IMG/VR virus record: IMGVR_UViG_3300003690_000097
Coordinates: 1 to 26,396 of that record
Length of the DNA stretch: 26,396 bases
Strand: one strand, 5' to 3'
Origin: a virus
Below are positions 2,197-14,136 of the stretch, piece after piece. The stretch's first letter is position 1; the number at the start of each line of letters is the position of its first letter. The notes under the pieces were generated by a model. It saw nothing but the letters and a program-made list of their open reading frames with translations. It made no database searches and had not been told where the DNA came from. The position numbers were made by a program, and so were the translations under genes.

Positions 2197-2334
2197 ATGA
2201 GGACACGGTTTTATATCATCACCTGGGCCGACAGGCGCGACCAGATGGAGCAGGACGGCTGGACACTGGTAAAGATATACTCGCTTACGGGCTGTCACCA
2301 TGCGCCCAGCGCACTGTTCTGGAGGGAAGGATGA
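2197..2334 (+). CDS. Small hypothetical protein, 45 aa
   Basis: The ATG at 2197 opens a 45-codon frame ending in TGA 2332-2334, which overlaps the helicase-methyltransferase ATG at 2331 (ATGA), the usual sign of translational coupling. The protein begins MRTRFYIITWADRRDQMEQDGW and ends with the Cys-His-rich segment SLTGCHHAPSALFWREG. This compact pattern looks like a real small phage protein rather than noise, and the two histidines and cysteine could bind a metal. There is little room for a Shine-Dalgarno site (AGGA lies one base before the ATG). Function unknown. Confidence 0.6.
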   Translation: MRTRFYIITWADRRDQMEQDGWTLVKIYSLTGCHHAPSALFWREG

Positions 2335-4526
2335 CTGGTTACCAGGAATTCCTTGAATCAAAAACCGTTATTGAGCCGGAATTCGGCACACTGGAAAGCG
2401 TTAAGATCAATCCAATGCTCTATCCTTTCCAGGCCGATATTGTCCGGTGGGCTCTGCGGAGGGGAAGGGCCTGTATTTTTGCGGATTGCGGACTCGGGAA
2501 GACGCCTATGCAGCTTTCGTGGGCTGAAAATATCCCAGGGAAGGTTCTTATCCTCGCACCGCTTGCCGTCTCTGATCAAACCATCCGAGAGGGGGAGAAG
2601 TTCGGGATCGATGTTCGTGGAGCCAGGGATCAAAGCCAAGTCACGGGAAAGATAACAATAACGAACTACGAGATGTTGAGCCATTTCGAGCCTGGGGAAT
2701 TTTCCGGGATAGTCCTTGATGAGTCATCCATTATCAAGAACTTCGACGGGAAGCTCAGAGGGCAGATAATAGAGATGTTCAGGGATACATCCTATCGTCT
2801 CGCCTGTACAGCGACTCCTGCGCCGAATGATTACATGGAGCTAGGCAATCATTCGGAGTTTGTGGGCGCGATGACCAGGACAGAAATGCTCTCAATGTTC
2901 TTTGTTCATGACGGCGGGGAAACACAGAAATGGAGGATTAAAGGCCACGCGCAGGACAAGTTCTGGACCTGGGTTTGTTCATGGGCCGTACTTATCAGGA
3001 AACCATCCGACCTGAAGTATGAAGATTCCGGCTTCAATCTCCCGCCCATTTATATCCATGAGCATCTCGTTGAAGCAAACTCTTCGCAAGATGGGTTTCT
3101 ATTTCCAATGGAGGCAAAGACCTTACAAGAACGTCAAGGGGCTCGGCGAGAATCCATCTCGGAAAGGGTTTCCGCATGTGCCGAAAAAGTGAATAGCAGC
3201 CATGAGCCTTGGGTCGTCTGGTGTAACTTGAACAGCGAAAGCGATGCCTTAAAAAAGGCAATACCGGATTCCGTTGAAGTCAGGGGGAGCGATTCCAGGG
3301 AGGTCAAAGAGTCCCGTTTATTAGATTTCGGAAGGGGGAGGGTCCGCGTGATGGTGACGAAACCCTCCATCGCGGGATTCGGCCTGAACTGGCAGCATTG
3401 CCCTAACATGGCCTTTGTCGGCCTCTCTGATTCCTTCGAGCAATACTATCAGGCGACCAGACGATGTTGGAGGTTCGGGCAAGATAAGCCCGTAAATGTC
3501 CACATAATCACAGCAAGGACCGAGGGGGCCGTGGTGTCGAATATCAAGAGGAAGGAGAAAGATGCCGAGGAAATGATCAAGGGGATGTTAGCCAACATGA
3601 AAGATATCAACGCCGATGAAGTCAGGGGAGAGGCCATGAGTGAGGTGGAGGGGAAGGCCGTGGTAAAGGAGGGACCAGAATGGAAGATGATCATGGGGGA
3701 CTGTGTTGATGTCGTCGGCAAACTTGAACCGGGAAGCATCCATTATTCTATTTTCTCTCCACCTTTTTCATCTCTCTACACATATACGGACAGCGAGAAG
3801 GACATGGGCAACAGCCGGGACGACCGGGAATTCTATGAACATTTCCGCTTCCTGGTCAAAGAATTATACCGGGTGATTTTGCCGGGGCGGCTTGTGAGTT
3901 TTCATTGTATGAACCTCCAAACAACGAAAACACATTTCGGTTATATTGGGATCAGGGATTTCAGGGGCGAAATGATCCGGTTGTTTGAAGCGGAAGGATT
4001 CATTTACCATTCCGAAGTTTGTATTTGGAAAGACCCAGTTATAGCGATGCAGAGGACGAAGGCCCTTGGTCTACTTTACAAACAACTTAAAAAAGATTCG
4101 GCCATGTCAAGGCAGGGGATTCCGGATTATCTTGTGACAATGAGGAAGCCGGGAGACAATCCAGAGGCCGTCACAAAAGACCCAGAAGATTTTCCTGTGT
4201 CGGTGTGGCAGCGTTATGCTTCCCCGATATGGACCGACATAAACCCATCCGACACGCTTGCATTCAGATCAGTGCGGGAGCATAAGGATGATAAACATAT
4301 TTGCCCTCTCCAGCTAACCGTGATCCAGAGGGGTGTGGAAATATGGACGAATCCCGGTGACACGGTTCTTTCACCGTTCGCTGGCATTGGAAGTGAAGGT
4401 TACGTGGCAGTGAATCTTGGCCGAAGATTTCTTGGTGTTGAATTAAAGGGATCATATTTCCGTCAAGCGTGCGAAAACATGAAATCGGCGAGAGGGGGAG
4501 ACCTATTCAGTGGGGAGGCCACATGA
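2331..4526 (+). CDS. SNF2-like helicase fused to N4/N6 DNA methyltransferase
   Basis: A single 731-aa chain holds two enzymes. Residues 1 to about 440 are a superfamily 2 helicase/translocase: Walker A ADCGLGKTP (51-59), the DExx box LDESS (129-133), motif III CTATPAPND (159-167) and motif VI ATRRCWRFGQ (about 375-385). These are typical of SNF2-like proteins. Residues about 455-731 are a DNA methyltransferase. The catalytic motif IV reads IFSPPF (about 472-477) and comes before the AdoMet-binding motif SPFAGIGSEG (about 681-690), the beta-class order. An SPP(F/Y) motif is more usual for N4-cytosine than for N6-adenine enzymes, but the product base cannot be decided from sequence. It may modify phage DNA as it translocates, protecting it from restriction, or act at replication forks. 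It is coupled by ATGA to the small gene upstream. Confidence 0.9.
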   Translation: MTGYQEFLESKTVIEPEFGTLESVKINPMLYPFQADIVRWALRRGRACIFADCGLGKTPMQLSWAENIPGKVLILAPLAVSDQTIREGEKFGIDVRGARDQSQVTGKITITNYEMLSHFEPGEFSGIVLDESSIIKNFDGKLRGQIIEMFRDTSYRLACTATPAPNDYMELGNHSEFVGAMTRTEMLSMFFVHDGGETQKWRIKGHAQDKFWTWVCSWAVLIRKPSDLKYEDSGFNLPPIYIHEHLVEANSSQDGFLFPMEAKTLQERQGARRESISERVSACAEKVNSSHEPWVVWCNLNSESDALKKAIPDSVEVRGSDSREVKESRLLDFGRGRVRVMVTKPSIAGFGLNWQHCPNMAFVGLSDSFEQYYQATRRCWRFGQDKPVNVHIITARTEGAVVSNIKRKEKDAEEMIKGMLANMKDINADEVRGEAMSEVEGKAVVKEGPEWKMIMGDCVDVVGKLEPGSIHYSIFSPPFSSLYTYTDSEKDMGNSRDDREFYEHFRFLVKELYRVILPGRLVSFHCMNLQTTKTHFGYIGIRDFRGEMIRLFEAEGFIYHSEVCIWKDPVIAMQRTKALGLLYKQLKKDSAMSRQGIPDYLVTMRKPGDNPEAVTKDPEDFPVSVWQRYASPIWTDINPSDTLAFRSVREHKDDKHICPLQLTVIQRGVEIWTNPGDTVLSPFAGIGSEGYVAVNLGRRFLGVELKGSYFRQACENMKSARGGDLFSGEAT

Positions 4527-5044: not shown

Positions 5045-5203
5045 ATGGAGAGAGCGAGAGTTGAGAAGGTGCTGGAGCGGCTTGTGCGGTTGAAGGAGAT
5101 GTCCAACGGGGAGTCGAGCGCGGTGGAACTTGAAAAACACATAATGGAGTTGACAGCCCTTTTGACGCATCTGGAAGATGCAGATGAGGAGGAAAGAGAA
5201 TGA
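5045..5203 (+). CDS. Small charged helical protein, 52 aa
   Basis: The ATG at 5045 follows GGGAGGGAACGTGGG, a good ribosome-binding site. The 52-codon frame ends in TGA 5201-5203, overlapping the next ATG (5200) as ATGA. The product is almost all charged and leucine residues (VEKVLERLVRLKEM, VELEKHIMELTALLTHLEDA, then DEEERE) and should form one or two amphipathic helices or a coiled coil. It lies at the head of the replication genes and is translationally coupled to the replisome-type protein, so it may be a partner or regulator of it. I do not recognise the family. Confidence 0.7.
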   Translation: MERARVEKVLERLVRLKEMSNGESSAVELEKHIMELTALLTHLEDADEEERE

Positions 5204-7110: not shown

Positions 7111-7444
7111 TGGATCGGGAGGAAGAGATGATGCTTGTCGGAGTCTTGTCTCGGCTGTGATGCTGGAGGCGGTTAAGGATTACCGTCAGGATTTCCGAAA
7201 GCCGATGGATGATTATACACTGAAGCTACGCAAGAGAGATCAGGCAGAAGCCGAGACATGGATTTTCGGAATGTCAATCCGTGATGGATCAAGACGGTTT
7301 ACTTTCTCAGACTGTTGTGAACATTTGGGTCTTGAGGAAAATAATGTCCGGCAGAAATTAAAAGAGAGAGAACAGAAACTGGTGGATTTTGAGGTCGAAA
7401 AACTTTGGAAGGAATTGGGTCTGGATGTCGAAGACAAATCTTAA
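7097..7444 (+). CDS. Conserved-type small phage protein between terS and terL
   Basis: About 115 aa from ATG 7097; a TTG at 7082 in the same frame is an alternative. The middle, EAETWIFGMSIRDGSRRFTFSDCCEHLGLEENNVRQKL, has the pattern W...FSF..vCe.LGl....vR seen in small phage proteins that sit near terminase genes. It looks like a short helix-turn-helix. It overlaps terS by 14 bases and terL by 20 bases, so all three are co-translated. It may be a DNA-binding packaging or late-regulation partner. Function is not established. Confidence 0.65.
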   Translation: MIKVNGSGGRDDACRSLVSAVMLEAVKDYRQDFRKPMDDYTLKLRKRDQAEAETWIFGMSIRDGSRRFTFSDCCEHLGLEENNVRQKLKEREQKLVDFEVEKLWKELGLDVEDKS

Positions 7445-9071
7445 AGATTTAGAACACAATCGGATCATCGAAGTCGTGACGAAGGCGCAACGTGATCCAT
7501 GTTGGTTTGTGCGCGTGGTTCTCGGTTGCCAGATGTGGGAAAAGCAACGGATGATCTTGGAATCAATCCGAGATCACGATGAAACAGTTGTGGCTTCCTG
7601 TCATGGGGCAGGCAAATCGTGGACAGCGGCTGTATCTGTCTTGTGGTTCCTCTTCACTCATAGACACTCTATTGTAATAACGACCGCTCCAGGCAATAGA
7701 CAGGTAAAGGGAATACTCTGGAAAGAGATCAGACGTTTGCATCAGCAAGCCAGATTCCCGCTGGGTGGACGGGTTATCCAACAGGAAATAAAGGTGGATA
7801 CTGACTGGTTCGCCTGGGGATTTACCGCATCGGATCATGATCCTGATAAGTTTCAGGGCTTTCATTCTTCTTCGGGTTGGGTGTTGGTTGTAGTCGATGA
7901 ATCTTCTGGTGTTTCAAATCCAATCTTCGAGGCAATAGATGGTGTCTTATCGTCTGAGTATTCCAGGCTTCTTCTCATAGGAAACCCAACCAATCCGATG
8001 GGACGATTTGCCAAGAGTTTCGTCAAGAATCATTCGGCGCATAAAATAAATATCTCCGCTTTCGATACCCCAAACTTCAGGCATTTCAAGGTAGGGCCGG
8101 ATGATATCGAATCAGGGTCATGGAAAAAGAAAGTCGGTGATAAGTCCATGCCCTTTCCCATGCTCGTCACGCCAAAGTGGGCGGCTGAAAGACAGGCCAG
8201 ATATGGAAAGCGTTCTCCCTGGTATGTGGCGCGTGTCCTCGGCAGATTTCCATCAAGCCGTGATGATACATTGATTCCGCTGACGTGGCTTACACAGGCG
8301 CAGGGGAAACTGGTCGGGGATGCTGAATCATTGGATGGTTTGCGGATCGTGGATTCACCACTGATGACCGCTCTGGGTGTGGATGTGGCAAGGTACGGTC
8401 AGGATCGCACAGTGTTCACCGTACTTCAGATCCATGAAATCCTTTGCGGTGACAAGGATTCTCCACCAGAATTCTTTTCTCAGATCACTTGCATCCAGGC
8501 GCGAGATCGCACGAGTGTCACCGAAGTGGCGACAGAAGCCCAGTTGATCTCGGATACTTATCGATGCGATGGTATTGCTGTGGATGATACTGGTGTGGGC
8601 GGGGGTGTCACGGATATCCTTCAGGATGCGGGACTCATGGTTGAGCCAGTCTTGTTTGGTTCGGCATCATCGGAAACTGATGAAAAGGTTTATATCAATC
8701 TGAAGGCGGAACTGTTCTGGAGTTTGAGAAGGGCATTTGAAAAGGGACAGATTGGTTTTGATACCGAGGATGAAACCCTTGAATCCGAGATTGATATAAT
8801 GGTGGGTCAGTTGTCCATGATGTTATACGAGGTCACGCCAAGAGGCATCAGAATCATAGATCCAGATGAGTCTGCCGGAAAGCGCAAGGCATTGGGCGAT
8901 TTAGTTAGAAGCCCTGACTACGCCCACAGTCTAGGTCTGGCTTGGTGGTATGCTAAAATCGGAGGGCCGGGAAGTGTGGCACTTACCGATGCGGAGACGA
9001 CATCAATCAGTGATACCAAGCGGTCCCTATTTGGAAGCAGTAGAGACAGAATGGGAGATGTATTCCGATGA
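7425..9071 (+). CDS. terL: Terminase large subunit
   Basis: The 548-aa protein has both TerL domains. The ATPase has Walker A SCHGAGKSW (about residues 57-65), the TAPGNRQV segment, Walker B VLVVVDESSG (about 152-161) and coupling motif LLIGNPTNPMGRF. The RNase H-like nuclease has LGVDVARYGQDRTV (first metal-binding Asp near 318), VDDTGVGGGVTDIL (about 385) and a late Asp in SPDYAHSLGLAWW (about 496). It powers DNA translocation into the prohead and cuts the concatemer. I chose ATG 7425, with GGAAGGAA upstream; a TTG at 7389 would overlap the previous gene far more. The stop overlaps the portal start as ATGA. Confidence 0.95.
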   Translation: MSKTNLKDLEHNRIIEVVTKAQRDPCWFVRVVLGCQMWEKQRMILESIRDHDETVVASCHGAGKSWTAAVSVLWFLFTHRHSIVITTAPGNRQVKGILWKEIRRLHQQARFPLGGRVIQQEIKVDTDWFAWGFTASDHDPDKFQGFHSSSGWVLVVVDESSGVSNPIFEAIDGVLSSEYSRLLLIGNPTNPMGRFAKSFVKNHSAHKINISAFDTPNFRHFKVGPDDIESGSWKKKVGDKSMPFPMLVTPKWAAERQARYGKRSPWYVARVLGRFPSSRDDTLIPLTWLTQAQGKLVGDAESLDGLRIVDSPLMTALGVDVARYGQDRTVFTVLQIHEILCGDKDSPPEFFSQITCIQARDRTSVTEVATEAQLISDTYRCDGIAVDDTGVGGGVTDILQDAGLMVEPVLFGSASSETDEKVYINLKAELFWSLRRAFEKGQIGFDTEDETLESEIDIMVGQLSMMLYEVTPRGIRIIDPDESAGKRKALGDLVRSPDYAHSLGLAWWYAKIGGPGSVALTDAETTSISDTKRSLFGSSRDRMGDVFR

Positions 9072-10528
9072 GAATCTTTGAGCGTCTTCAACGAGCCATG
9101 AACGGATTTAGACTAAGGGAGGGGGTGGATGTTTCGACTGGTCTGATTGACGACGATGAACATCTTTATCGACGATTGGGAGATGCAAAGCCACGGGATC
9201 TGCAACCGCTCAAGCGTGAGAAGGCGGTGAACATCGCCTTGTATATGTATATGTCCAACCCATTGGCTCATCGTCTCACGGAGGACTTGAAGGATTGGGT
9301 GGTGGGAAGCGGGATCAAGGTCAGGCATGACAATCCAGAATTGCAAGATGTTCTTAATGCTCATTGGGAAGATCATATAAATAACTGGAACATTAGCCAG
9401 CATGAATTTGTCCGCGATCTGGGTTTGTTTGGCGAACTGATTATGCCGACTTTTGTTAATGAGGCAAATGGTCATGTCCGGTTTGGTGTTCTCGATCCTG
9501 GCCTTGTCAAAAGAATTGAATACGATCCTGAGAACGCTCGAATTCCAATCTCAGTTATAAAACGTGGGAAGAACAGGACCGATCACTCCCTATCTATTGT
9601 CAAGGAAGACGAGAACCCTGTCTCGTCTTCTTATGGCCGGTTGATCGGAGAGACATTTCTTTTTATGGTAAACAGGACTGTCTCACAGGGTCATGGTTAT
9701 CCTGACTTGCTTGCCATGTCGGACTTTCTGAACGCTTATGATCAATTCATGTTCGATGACATGGAACGAACTGTCTTGATGAAAAGGTTCATTTTCGATC
9801 TTGAGATCAAGGGAGCGAATAAAAAGGTTTTGCAGGAACGGTCTGATTTATTGAAGAACTTGAAGCCTGGACAAGTCTATGCTCACAATCCAGGTGAGAC
9901 CTTAACGTCAGTTTCACCCAACATTCAGGCATCTGATAATGCGGCGGCTGCAAAGATGTATCGGTCCCATGTTCTTGGTGGGGCGGGATGGTCGGAGGAA
10001 TTGTTCTCAGGTTCGGATAAAGTCCCATCCTCATCTGGAGGGCAATCAATCGGCGAAGCAGTTTTGAAACGTGTGGCATCCCGTCAGAGGTTCGTGGAAT
10101 ATATGATCAGGCATGAGATGAAATACGTGATGGATCAATGGTGGATTCATAATCCAGAGATGCGGGGCAGGATAGATGGAGCCCTGACTAATTCCGATCC
10201 GGTTGAGGTGAATAAAGTCCTGCATTCTTTCGATGTTGTCATGCCAGAGCCAGTGGCGCGGGATATGTCGAAAATCTCAGATGCGATTCTCAAATTGACA
10301 CTTGCCGCGATCAATGCGCTGAATAATGTTGAAGGTGAGTTGATGTCGCTTGAGGATGCCAGGAAAGCCGTGGCGGTTGCATGGGCCAATTTCGGAGTAG
10401 AGATAGATCCAGTGATTGATGATGGTCCGAGGGAAGAGGCGGAAACCCCAGGGGATCGTGAGACTATGGGCGATGACGTAGAAGCAGAGCTTGGAATGGA
10501 TCTGGTAAATAGAAATGGGGATTCTTGA
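9068..10528 (+). CDS. Portal protein
   Basis: At 486 aa it has the usual portal length and position after terL. It begins MRIFERLQRAMNGFRLREG, then has NPLAHRLTEDLKDWVVGSGIKV (about residues 60-85). A long alpha-helical middle includes the stem-like DLLAMSDFLNAYDQFMFDDMERTVLMKRFIFDLEI and, near 300-330, SSGGQSIGEAVLKRVASRQRFVEYM. The last 50 residues are acidic and likely flexible. The dodecameric portal is the DNA entry channel and the docking site for terminase and for the head-tail adaptor. ATGA coupling with terL and a one-base overlap with the MuF gene indicate tight co-expression. Confidence 0.9.
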   Translation: MRIFERLQRAMNGFRLREGVDVSTGLIDDDEHLYRRLGDAKPRDLQPLKREKAVNIALYMYMSNPLAHRLTEDLKDWVVGSGIKVRHDNPELQDVLNAHWEDHINNWNISQHEFVRDLGLFGELIMPTFVNEANGHVRFGVLDPGLVKRIEYDPENARIPISVIKRGKNRTDHSLSIVKEDENPVSSSYGRLIGETFLFMVNRTVSQGHGYPDLLAMSDFLNAYDQFMFDDMERTVLMKRFIFDLEIKGANKKVLQERSDLLKNLKPGQVYAHNPGETLTSVSPNIQASDNAAAAKMYRSHVLGGAGWSEELFSGSDKVPSSSGGQSIGEAVLKRVASRQRFVEYMIRHEMKYVMDQWWIHNPEMRGRIDGALTNSDPVEVNKVLHSFDVVMPEPVARDMSKISDAILKLTLAAINALNNVEGELMSLEDARKAVAVAWANFGVEIDPVIDDGPREEAETPGDRETMGDDVEAELGMDLVNRNGDS

Positions 10529-11433
10529 TGCCCTTGCCAGAATCTTCCAAGAAGGAAAAGGGATTTTCCATTCGTGAAAAGAATCTCACCAATGCACAGA
10601 GAACGGCGCGATATAATGCGGCTCGGGATAGGGTCGCAAATCAAGCATTTGTTCAGAGCAGGAATGCCCAGCGGCAGACTCTCAAGCTAATTGCGGAGAT
10701 GCGACAGAGAGTTGTGGCGAGAGTGGCGGTCACGGACTTCGAGGCATTTAATCTCAAACAGGTGTTAGATTCTCTGGATGAGAGTGTTGCGGCATTCGAG
10801 AGTCGATATGCTTCAGTCCTTAGCAAAGCGCAGGGTGAGGCGTATGAATTTGGGGCGGCGGCATTGGACAAGGGATTCAAAGCCGCACAATATGGTGTGG
10901 AGTTGCCTCTAATGTCTCAGACTCGCTTGGAGATACTCAGAGCGGGCAACTCGGCATTGGTGTCCGGTGTAACTGCTACGATGCGCCAGCAAATATCCGT
11001 TGAACTTTCCCAGGTCTTTATCGGCGCGATCTCACCACACGATGCGATGAAGACCCTGCGCAGTATGTTTGCAACACAAGCCACTGGGCCGATGAAGAGA
11101 TTCGGTGGTGTCACAGAACGGGCGCGGCGCATTGTAAGAACCGAGACCCGAAGCGTTCAAGAGTTTGCTTCAAAGATTAGAAGAAAACAGTGGGAAGATG
11201 CCGGGGTGGAAAAGATGCTGGTACTTTGGGATGGGTGCTTTGAGCGTCCCGGTCATACGGCTCTGAACGGGAGTAGTGTTCCGTTGGGGGAAAGATTTAC
11301 CTTGATTGGTGCCGATGGAGTCGTTTACAAACCAGAATATCCGCACGATTCATCGGCTCTGCCAGTGGGGGAGGTTGTTAATTGTGGTGGGTTTTCGACT
11401 ACCATCAAAACGGAATGGGCCGATGCGGCTTAG
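10528..11433 (+). CDS. MuF-type minor head (head morphogenesis) protein
   Basis: 301 aa, with ATG at 10528 inside TGATG of the portal stop. The N-terminal two thirds are helical. Residues about 195-295 form the MuF domain: RARRIVRTETRSVQEFASKIRRKQWEDAGVEKMLVLWDG, then RPGHTALNGSSVPLGERF, PEYPHD and GEVVNCGGF. Family members usually end this domain NCRC; here the final pair is NCGG, a small departure. MuF proteins are carried in the head, bind the portal, and may be ejected with DNA. Gene order portal-MuF-capsid is standard. Confidence 0.85.
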   Translation: MPLPESSKKEKGFSIREKNLTNAQRTARYNAARDRVANQAFVQSRNAQRQTLKLIAEMRQRVVARVAVTDFEAFNLKQVLDSLDESVAAFESRYASVLSKAQGEAYEFGAAALDKGFKAAQYGVELPLMSQTRLEILRAGNSALVSGVTATMRQQISVELSQVFIGAISPHDAMKTLRSMFATQATGPMKRFGGVTERARRIVRTETRSVQEFASKIRRKQWEDAGVEKMLVLWDGCFERPGHTALNGSSVPLGERFTLIGADGVVYKPEYPHDSSALPVGEVVNCGGFSTTIKTEWADAA

Positions 11434-11811: not shown

Positions 11812-14136
11812 ATGTCGAGCATAAAAAACCTTCTGTTACATGATCAACGCTTGAGCGAGGTCGTTGGTGACATTCTCTCCCCGGCTGTCATTGGCGTGGA
11901 AGGCGTTGATGATGAAGATGCCTTTAAATCTGGACGAGTATGGGAGGTTGTTTTAATTCGGTCAGGAGTATCTGCAAACAACCATGATTGGACCGCTGAT
12001 GCTCTTCGTGAATCTGTAAGAATGTTTGAAGGTGTGAAGGCTTTCAAAAACCATATCACACAATCAGAGGAGAGAGAACGACCAGAACGAAACATAGATG
12101 ATTATATCGGTTGGTATCAACAGGCACGATATGATGAAACTCTGAATGGCGTTGTTGCTAATTTCTACCTTGTGGACCTCGACTTGAGGATGAAGGTGAA
12201 AGAGGCGTGGGAACTTGGGAATAAGAATTTCCTTCAGTTTTCCATTGACGCTTTGGCGGATGGCACGGCCAATCAGGACGGCGGTCTTACCATCACGCGA
12301 TTGGCTGAAGTCGTTAGTGTGGATGTAGTTACAACGGCGGCGGCTGGTGGTATTGCTCTGAGGTTGGTTGCCTCGGGGGATGGGCGCGACTTATCAACCG
12401 CGCAATCCATGAATGAGAAAGGAAAAGAATCGATGAATATGTTGGAGATCCTGGAGAAATTAAATCCAGCAGAAGCAAAGTTTCTGAAAGACATTGAGGC
12501 CACGAAGGATCAGATCGCTCGTGCCTTAGTTGCTTTTGGAGAGAAGTCGGAAGACATTTCGGCGGAACTAAAGGAAGAGATGGAAACTGCCTTGGCTCTT
12601 CACAATGCAGACGCATCCGAGAAAGAGGACAATCAGGAAGAGGTTGAAACACCAGTCTCTTCTCAAGGAGAGAATGAGTCTGCTGAAGAACTACAACTTG
12701 TTGATGCGGGTGTCTCGGAGAGCAAGAAACCCATGCAACGTAAAAATGCCGGGGCTTCTGGTTCTGGAGATGTACCATCAGACTTGGCTCTGGCAACCTC
12801 GCAAATGGTAATGGAACAGAAGCTGACGGAGAGCGGACTTCCGAAGCCCCTTGCGGATTCGGTTCGTGAACGATACAGGGATCGGATTGTCAGCTTGTCT
12901 GATCTAACTAATTCGATCCAAGAGAGCAGGAAACTCTGGGCTTCCATCACGGAGAGTGGACAGGTGAAAGAGCTTGGGAATGAGTATGTCAGCATGGGAG
13001 AGAATGAAGAAGAGAAACTAGGGCATGGTCTTGACGGGTTCTTTGCCGGGAAGAACATCGGCAACGTCCCGAAGTTTAAATCTCTCAAGGAGGCATACCG
13101 AGCGGCCACGGGGGTGACTGGCGAGATCAATGTCTATTCGCTCCTTCGCGAGTCTTATCCTTCGCACATGGGTGAAAGGATCGCGGACAGTCCGCGTCTG
13201 CGCGAAGCGCATCTGGCGCGGTTGCGGGAATCGCTTGGCACGGCGGATTGGGCGCAGATCCTTGGCGATTCCGTCACCCGAAGGATGGTTGCGGAATATG
13301 CCGCGCCGGATCTTCAGTCATGGAGAAGGATCGTTTCGGACGTTGTTCCGGTCTCGGATTTTAGAACGCAGACCCGGCAACGCCTCGGGGGATACGGTAC
13401 GCTTTCCACCGTTGCTCAGGCTGGCACCTACCAGAACATTGCCAACCTGACTGATGAAGAAGTTTCGTATGCCGCCACGAAACGCGGTGGCACCGACGAC
13501 CTCACGATTGAGATGATTGCCAACGATGACATCGGAGCCATTCGTCGAATCCCTGCGAAGCTGGGAAAAGCGGCGGCGCGGACGCTTTATGAGTTTGTGT
13601 TTGATTTCATCAGGACGAATCCAACATTCGACGCTGACTCGGTTGCGGTGTTTCATTCCTCGCATGGGAACACTGGGACCACGGCTCTGAGTTCTGCCAC
13701 GTTGGATACGGCTCGGCAACAGATGCGGACCCAGGCGGCTTACGGGGACACCTCTGATATTCTTGGGTTGATTCCGAAGCTTCTGATCGTGCCAAATGAG
13801 CTTGAGCATCTCGCTTATCGTTTGGTTACCTCTAGCTTCTATCCTGGAGCCACGAATGAGAACGCGACGACCGTGAACTTGCATCAAGCGATGGATGTTC
13901 TTGTCATCGATTACTGGACGGATGCAAATGACTGGGCAGTTGTTTGCGAACCGGCCAATTGCCCGACGATAGAGATCGGATTCCTTGAAGGGCGTGAGGA
14001 GCCGGAACTGTTCGTGCAGGATATGCCAACGGCGGGATCGATGTTCGATGCCGACAAGGTAACTTACAAGATCCGCCATATCTACGGTGGCGATGTTATT
14101 GATTACCGTGGAATGTGGAAGGGTGTGGTGGCATAG
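11812..14136 (+). CDS. Fused capsid maturation protease, scaffold and major capsid protein
   Basis: 774 aa in one frame. Residues 1 to about 190 are a phage prohead protease: VWEVVLIRSGVSANNHDWTADALRESVRMFEGVKAFKNH (His81), DDYIGWYQQARYD, FLQFSID (Ser144) and the closing VVSVDVVTTAAAGG. His81 and Ser144 fit the Ser-His catalytic pair of assemblin-like proteases. Residues about 205-430 are acidic, Glu/Gln-rich and helical, as in a scaffold. Residues about 440-774 look like an HK97-fold major capsid protein (LGTADWAQILGDSVTRRMVAEY, WRRIVSDVVPVSDFRTQTRQRLGGYG, then RRIPAKLGKAAARTLYEFV). ATG 12433 (residue 208) has GAAAGGAAA eight bases upstream, so a scaffold-capsid form without protease could be made. 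Normally these are separate genes; cleavage would release the capsid protein. Confidence 0.9.
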   Translation: MSSIKNLLLHDQRLSEVVGDILSPAVIGVEGVDDEDAFKSGRVWEVVLIRSGVSANNHDWTADALRESVRMFEGVKAFKNHITQSEERERPERNIDDYIGWYQQARYDETLNGVVANFYLVDLDLRMKVKEAWELGNKNFLQFSIDALADGTANQDGGLTITRLAEVVSVDVVTTAAAGGIALRLVASGDGRDLSTAQSMNEKGKESMNMLEILEKLNPAEAKFLKDIEATKDQIARALVAFGEKSEDISAELKEEMETALALHNADASEKEDNQEEVETPVSSQGENESAEELQLVDAGVSESKKPMQRKNAGASGSGDVPSDLALATSQMVMEQKLTESGLPKPLADSVRERYRDRIVSLSDLTNSIQESRKLWASITESGQVKELGNEYVSMGENEEEKLGHGLDGFFAGKNIGNVPKFKSLKEAYRAATGVTGEINVYSLLRESYPSHMGERIADSPRLREAHLARLRESLGTADWAQILGDSVTRRMVAEYAAPDLQSWRRIVSDVVPVSDFRTQTRQRLGGYGTLSTVAQAGTYQNIANLTDEEVSYAATKRGGTDDLTIEMIANDDIGAIRRIPAKLGKAAARTLYEFVFDFIRTNPTFDADSVAVFHSSHGNTGTTALSSATLDTARQQMRTQAAYGDTSDILGLIPKLLIVPNELEHLAYRLVTSSFYPGATNENATTVNLHQAMDVLVIDYWTDANDWAVVCEPANCPTIEIGFLEGREEPELFVQDMPTAGSMFDADKVTYKIRHIYGGDVIDYRGMWKGVVA
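12419..12435 (+). promoter_or_regulatory. Internal ribosome-binding site and start candidate
   Basis: GAAAGGAAAA before ATG 12433, in frame inside the protease-capsid gene, lies exactly at the protease/scaffold boundary (residue 208). Initiation here would yield a 567-aa scaffold-capsid product without the protease, comparable in principle to the nested scaffold start inside the lambda protease gene. Confidence 0.45.

Follow-up and report, generated by a model that had tools for sequence, protein, structure and literature searches.

The window analysed here is the complete virus record IMGVR_UViG_3300003690_000097 of IMG/VR (26,396 nucleotides, with no larger genome behind it). One gene on its plus strand (11812-14136) very probably yields a nested pair of proteins, namely a full-length chain of protease, scaffold and major capsid protein (MCP) and a shorter scaffold-MCP chain begun at an internal start codon, the two of which would co-assemble and then be cleaved. 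Because the internal Shine-Dalgarno (SD) sequence of the window is, taken alone, only moderate, the case against chance rests on conservation in relatives. The possible internal start proposed in an earlier sequence-only reading of this DNA is strongly supported by the conservation of both start codon and SD in two sets of relatives.

Gene layout and predicted domains

The gene is a single frame of 774 codons without an internal stop, in agreement with the earlier claim that protease, scaffold and MCP lie in one frame, and the one-frame fusion is also found in relatives. It is located between a block of packaging and head genes (7389-11433, plus strand), comprising the genes for the terminase large subunit (7389-9071), portal (9068-10528) and head morphogenesis protein (10525-11433), and tail genes including the tape measure gene; this interval is the usual location for protease, scaffold and capsid genes. 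Within the gene, third-codon-position GC is 0.44 over the protease part but 0.60-0.64 over the capsid part (13006-14133). Such an increase is usual in relatives (mean 0.07), and the window's value of 0.16, which ranks seventh of 145, is perhaps a trace of recombination. Elsewhere in the window, a 731-aa open reading frame (2331-4526), N-terminally matching DNA helicase families and C-terminally DNA methyltransferase families, is a possible helicase-methyltransferase fusion.

The AlphaFold2 model, computed with 58 aligned relatives, contained a well-folded protease domain at about residues 39-190 (11926-12381, plus strand, as are all parts of the gene). A PDB sequence search with the protease profile returned no match, so that a fold search was needed to place the domain; T4 gp21 prohead protease (5jbl) was the sole clear PDB match to the model (Foldseek E = 6.7e-4), with a VIA Z of 11.0, and the herpesvirus assemblins came next with Z of 5-8. 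Ser144 was invariant across all alignments and His81 in the protease-part alignments (58-59 relatives), while Asp171 was nearly invariant. Residues 1-200 are thus predicted to adopt an assemblin-type protease fold with His81 and Ser144 as putative catalytic residues, which bears out the prohead protease with these two residues that the sequence-only reading had named, as well as the fold it anticipated for residues 1-190. PHROG 15531 ("head maturation protease") matched 56 of 58 members and PHROG 29592 (function unknown) covered most of the window protein, while Pfam gave only two matches to the protease of members, both weak and to Peptidase_S77.

The protease domain is followed by a linker (residues 188-207, 12373-12432) that bears the internal ribosome-binding site and by a delta-domain-like scaffold region between protease and capsid (residues 208-398, 12433-13005). 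The latter is mostly helical with a computed pI of 4.5, as expected of the acidic scaffold-like region described earlier. A junction with a conserved helix and an N-arm (residues 399-475, 13006-13236; low confidence at 439-475) is where release of the capsid protein would most likely occur; the cleavage site would be expected somewhere in residues 383-476. The capsid domain, which begins at about residue 476 in the model (476-774, 13237-14133), is predicted to have the HK97 fold, given 340 Foldseek matches at E <= 0.001, including HK97 1ohg (4e-8), VIA Z values for residues 475-773 of up to 14.9 (12.5 for HK97 Prohead II), and a Pfam PF25209 match at residues 471-770 (1.6e-48). The earlier MCP assignment, together with the HK97 fold anticipated for residues 440-774, is in accord with these matches.

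Distribution of the fusion

Separate genes had been held to be the rule in the sequence-only reading, which proved too strong a statement. One open frame was present in all 80 IMG/VR relatives fetched, and the fusion was visible in 78 of them, the protease part having been removed by the contig end in the other two (L003 and L069). The closest isolate was Microcystis phage Mae-JY22 (33% identity over 96%), and the relatives diverge to about 30-40% identity across several bacterial phyla. Since these relatives carry the same open fusion with no frame break between the parts, a frameshift or a sequencing join of separate genes was ruled out.

The arrangement, regarded as unusual in that reading, is already catalogued: NCBIfam holds two models for protease/MCP fusions, NF045541 (scaf_prot_MCP2) and NF045540 (ClpP-like, scaf_prot_MCP1). 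The window protein scored 200.3 bits against NF045541 (curated cut-off 525), matching at residues 467-770 only, which is the capsid part, and 166.4 bits against NF045540 (curated cut-off 475), matching from residue 256 on; its whole-protein scores place it outside both models, and profile comparison of its protease with the ClpP-like protease gave a Prob of 0.1. The aligned relatives likewise matched these models through the capsid part and below the cut-offs. The window protease forms a sequence family separate from those of the NF045541 and NF045540 fusions. Protease, scaffold and MCP have been proposed as one gene in Pseudomonas phages in the MD8 paper (PMC8508860), the MD8-type fusion was later described as a "single propeptide" (PMC9855967), and the fusion has been noted in Rhodobacter RcC and Arthrobacter Powelldog phages (PMC8601537, PMC12760985). 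The search for other phages with the same fusion was therefore fruitful (IMG/VR relatives, MD8, Rhodobacter phages), and the protease-scaffold-MCP fusion is not new but catalogued and widespread.

Two further arrangements were observed. Methanoculleus virus Blf4 (L085:3294-4481) has a related capsid protein in a 395-codon gene, too short for a fused protease of such size, so unfused relatives exist. In a Rhodocyclaceae MAG prophage (L153:3941-7260), the fused protease-scaffold-MCP gene is closely followed downstream by a second MCP paralogue, which stands alone, is 361 aa long, lacks a protease and has hardly any scaffold.

Proposed internal start codon in the window

The proposed internal start, ATG 12433 (12433-12435, Met208), is preceded in frame by the SD sequence AAAGGA at 12418-12423, 9 nt upstream. 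Residues 188-211 had pLDDT below 50 and the first predicted scaffold helix begins at residue 209, one residue past Met208, so that codon 208 lies in the low-confidence linker just before the helices and ATG 12433 falls at the protease/scaffold boundary, where the earlier reading had put it. An alternative start, ATG 12439 (Met210), lies six bases further on. SD energies were calculated against a generic 16S tail, from which that of the host may differ; on this measure the energy was -5.6 kcal/mol at ATG 12433 and -5.8 at the first start of the gene. As these two values are about equal, the idea of many short and few long chains is not readable from the window sequence alone, and their near equality counts against the nested pair, as does an in-frame ATG at 12733 (Met308) with a stronger SD (-6.6) than the boundary start. 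No conserved peak was found at the latter position in relatives.

Conservation of the boundary start

In the first alignment almost all relatives had a Met at the boundary, after Glu/Gly/Lys-rich residues whose codons spell AGGAGG. We therefore located boundary starts by a rule blind to the SD, as the first ATG, or else GTG, 10-35 codons past a conserved GG; for a few genes, that of the window among them, this picks the wrong site (in the window, ATG 12409 rather than 12433), which works against the signal. All 59 non-redundant relatives in the first set had a boundary ATG or GTG, and at 57 of these 59 starts the SD energy was -5 or lower, a level reached by 21% of the 903 in-frame ATGs elsewhere (p = 3e-27). 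A second set, prophages from GTDB genomes collected afterwards at no more than 90% identity to one another and to the first set, had a start with SD in the boundary region in 62 of 63 genes compared with 21% of 1547 equal-length control regions (p = 5e-39). These p-values take the relatives as independent, which shared ancestry makes not fully so, and effect sizes are the better guide; this dependence weighs somewhat against the nested pair, although the relatives are at most 90% identical and span several phyla. Chance origin of the boundary start was ruled out by both sets, by the SD-to-start spacing and by the single peak along the gene. As the positive control, the annotated Nu3 start of phage lambda scored -6.9 on the same SD measure. 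What the sequences of these genes indicate is accordingly an internal start of the lambda C/Nu3 type, in frame and provided with an SD, where protease and scaffold meet. Such a start was not named for these fusions in the literature searched, which covered few subscription journals, and within that literature it is apparently undescribed.

The published picture of the fusion in phage MD8, as a single gene (PMC8508860) and a "single propeptide" (PMC9855967), would be that of one chain only, each capsid subunit bearing its own protease and the purine-rich block having another role or none. We consider this unlikely for several reasons. The purine-rich, AGGAGG-like block is conserved in relatives at -14 to -8, a spacing suited to initiation, and the SD is kept across the switch between ATG (109 genes) and GTG (13 genes). 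The boundary was the sole peak along the gene, a start with SD energy of -6 or lower occurring there in 75% of 122 genes and in 26% at the next region. When codons were reshuffled synonymously according to each gene's own usage, the mean SD was weaker than observed in 2000 of 2000 trials, which indicates selection on the nucleotides and not on the amino acids alone. Moreover, the published description of MD8 left internal starts unconsidered. Predicted RNA folding also left the boundary site unpaired more often than other ATGs (0.51 versus 0.39, p = 6e-22), and in 77 genes the internal SD outscored the strongest candidate for the primary SD, the reverse being true of 43 genes (p = 2e-5).

It has been suggested that ribosomes are slowed by SD-like sequences within a reading frame, and an SD directly after a folded domain could let the protease fold before the scaffold is made, with no start involved. 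Such pausing requires no start codon, yet of 116 boundary SD 5-mers, 87 (75%) had an in-frame ATG or GTG 4-10 nt further on, compared with 8.3% of those elsewhere; neither of the remaining frames showed such an excess, which makes pausing a very improbable account of the site.

Boundary starts in other fusion types

Boundary starts with SD were also found in fusions with other proteases, in 14 of 15 non-redundant genes of the ClpP type (phage mEp460 and relatives; 17% in controls) and in 36 of 46 genes of the S1 type (Stenotrophomonas; 16.5% in controls). The three protease families (window-type, ClpP-type and S1-type) showed no significant profile similarity among one another. Ten of the 46 S1-type genes missed the -5 threshold; two of them (L093 and L096) have an ATG with purine-rich sequence upstream, at residues 204 and 191, respectively, which points to a boundary misplaced by the alignment, and the same holds for the ClpP-type miss (L091), with an ATG at 225 and an SD of -9.3. 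The counts for both types were left uncorrected for misplaced boundaries.

The idea of a relic, in which genes for a protease and for a scaffold-MCP, exactly the two that HK97-type phages keep separate, became joined when a stop codon was lost and the old ribosome-binding site has yet to decay, is hardly credible, since the SD still exceeds synonymous reshuffles among relatives about 30-40% identical in several phyla and the site is kept with three different protease families. It is likely, for the three types together, that tailed-phage fusion genes are generally dual-product genes, in which at least three protease families have been joined to a like scaffold-MCP with the junction start kept, and that the protease dose per capsid is set, within one reading frame, by how strong the internal ribosome-binding site is.

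Proposed products and comparison with known systems

For the nested pair we infer the following scheme. Initiation at 11812 would give the full 774-aa (about 85 kDa) protease-scaffold-MCP chain, and initiation at the internal SD and ATG 12433 a 567-aa (62 kDa) scaffold-MCP chain without protease. By virtue of their shared scaffold and capsid parts both chains would co-assemble into a procapsid with protease on some subunits only, and the protease would then, by cleavage, separate capsid protein from scaffold and release itself from the shell. That the two chains are both made, in what ratio, and that they co-assemble and are cleaved all belong to the model. A protease on every capsid subunit would mean several hundred proteases per procapsid; the "single propeptide" description leaves this dose unexplained, and the conserved internal start would solve it with one short signal. 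If these genes are dual-product, their present annotation misses a product, and a clear prediction follows for phages in laboratory use that carry this fusion, such as mEp213 and MD8.

The closest known arrangements are the NF045541 and NF045540 fusions, which share with the window the one-frame order of protease, scaffold and MCP, a homologous capsid part (200 and 166 bits) and a boundary start with SD, but whose proteases belong to different sequence families from that of the window (PHROG 29592/15531). Gp5 of Pseudomonas phage MD8 likewise joins protease, scaffold and MCP in one gene according to the published proposal (PMC8508860), although its protease is of the ClpP type and an internal start was not considered in that paper. 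In lambda C/Nu3, a protease-scaffold gene has an in-frame internal start (Nu3, annotated at 5132) that gives the scaffold alone (Shaw and Murialdo 1980, as cited in PMC8508860), whereas lambda encodes capsid protein E separately and has an S49-type protease. Herpesvirus UL26/UL26.5 resembles the window in having an assemblin-fold protease followed by scaffold and a nested shorter product without protease (in the window, a proposed one), the long form making up about 10% of the scaffold (PMC12474303), but the herpesvirus MCP is separate, the short form is encoded by UL26.5, a gene in its own right, and the kinship of assemblin with the window protease is by fold alone, from a predicted model. 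HK97 shares the capsid fold, and its gp5 (delta domain-MCP) carries scaffold and capsid protein as would the short product of the window, whereas its protease (gp4) is a separate gene. Unlike lambda Nu3 and the herpesvirus short form, the short product proposed for the window would carry the capsid protein as well, so that a single gene would combine the logic of herpesvirus UL26/UL26.5, lambda C/Nu3 and the HK97 delta-MCP.
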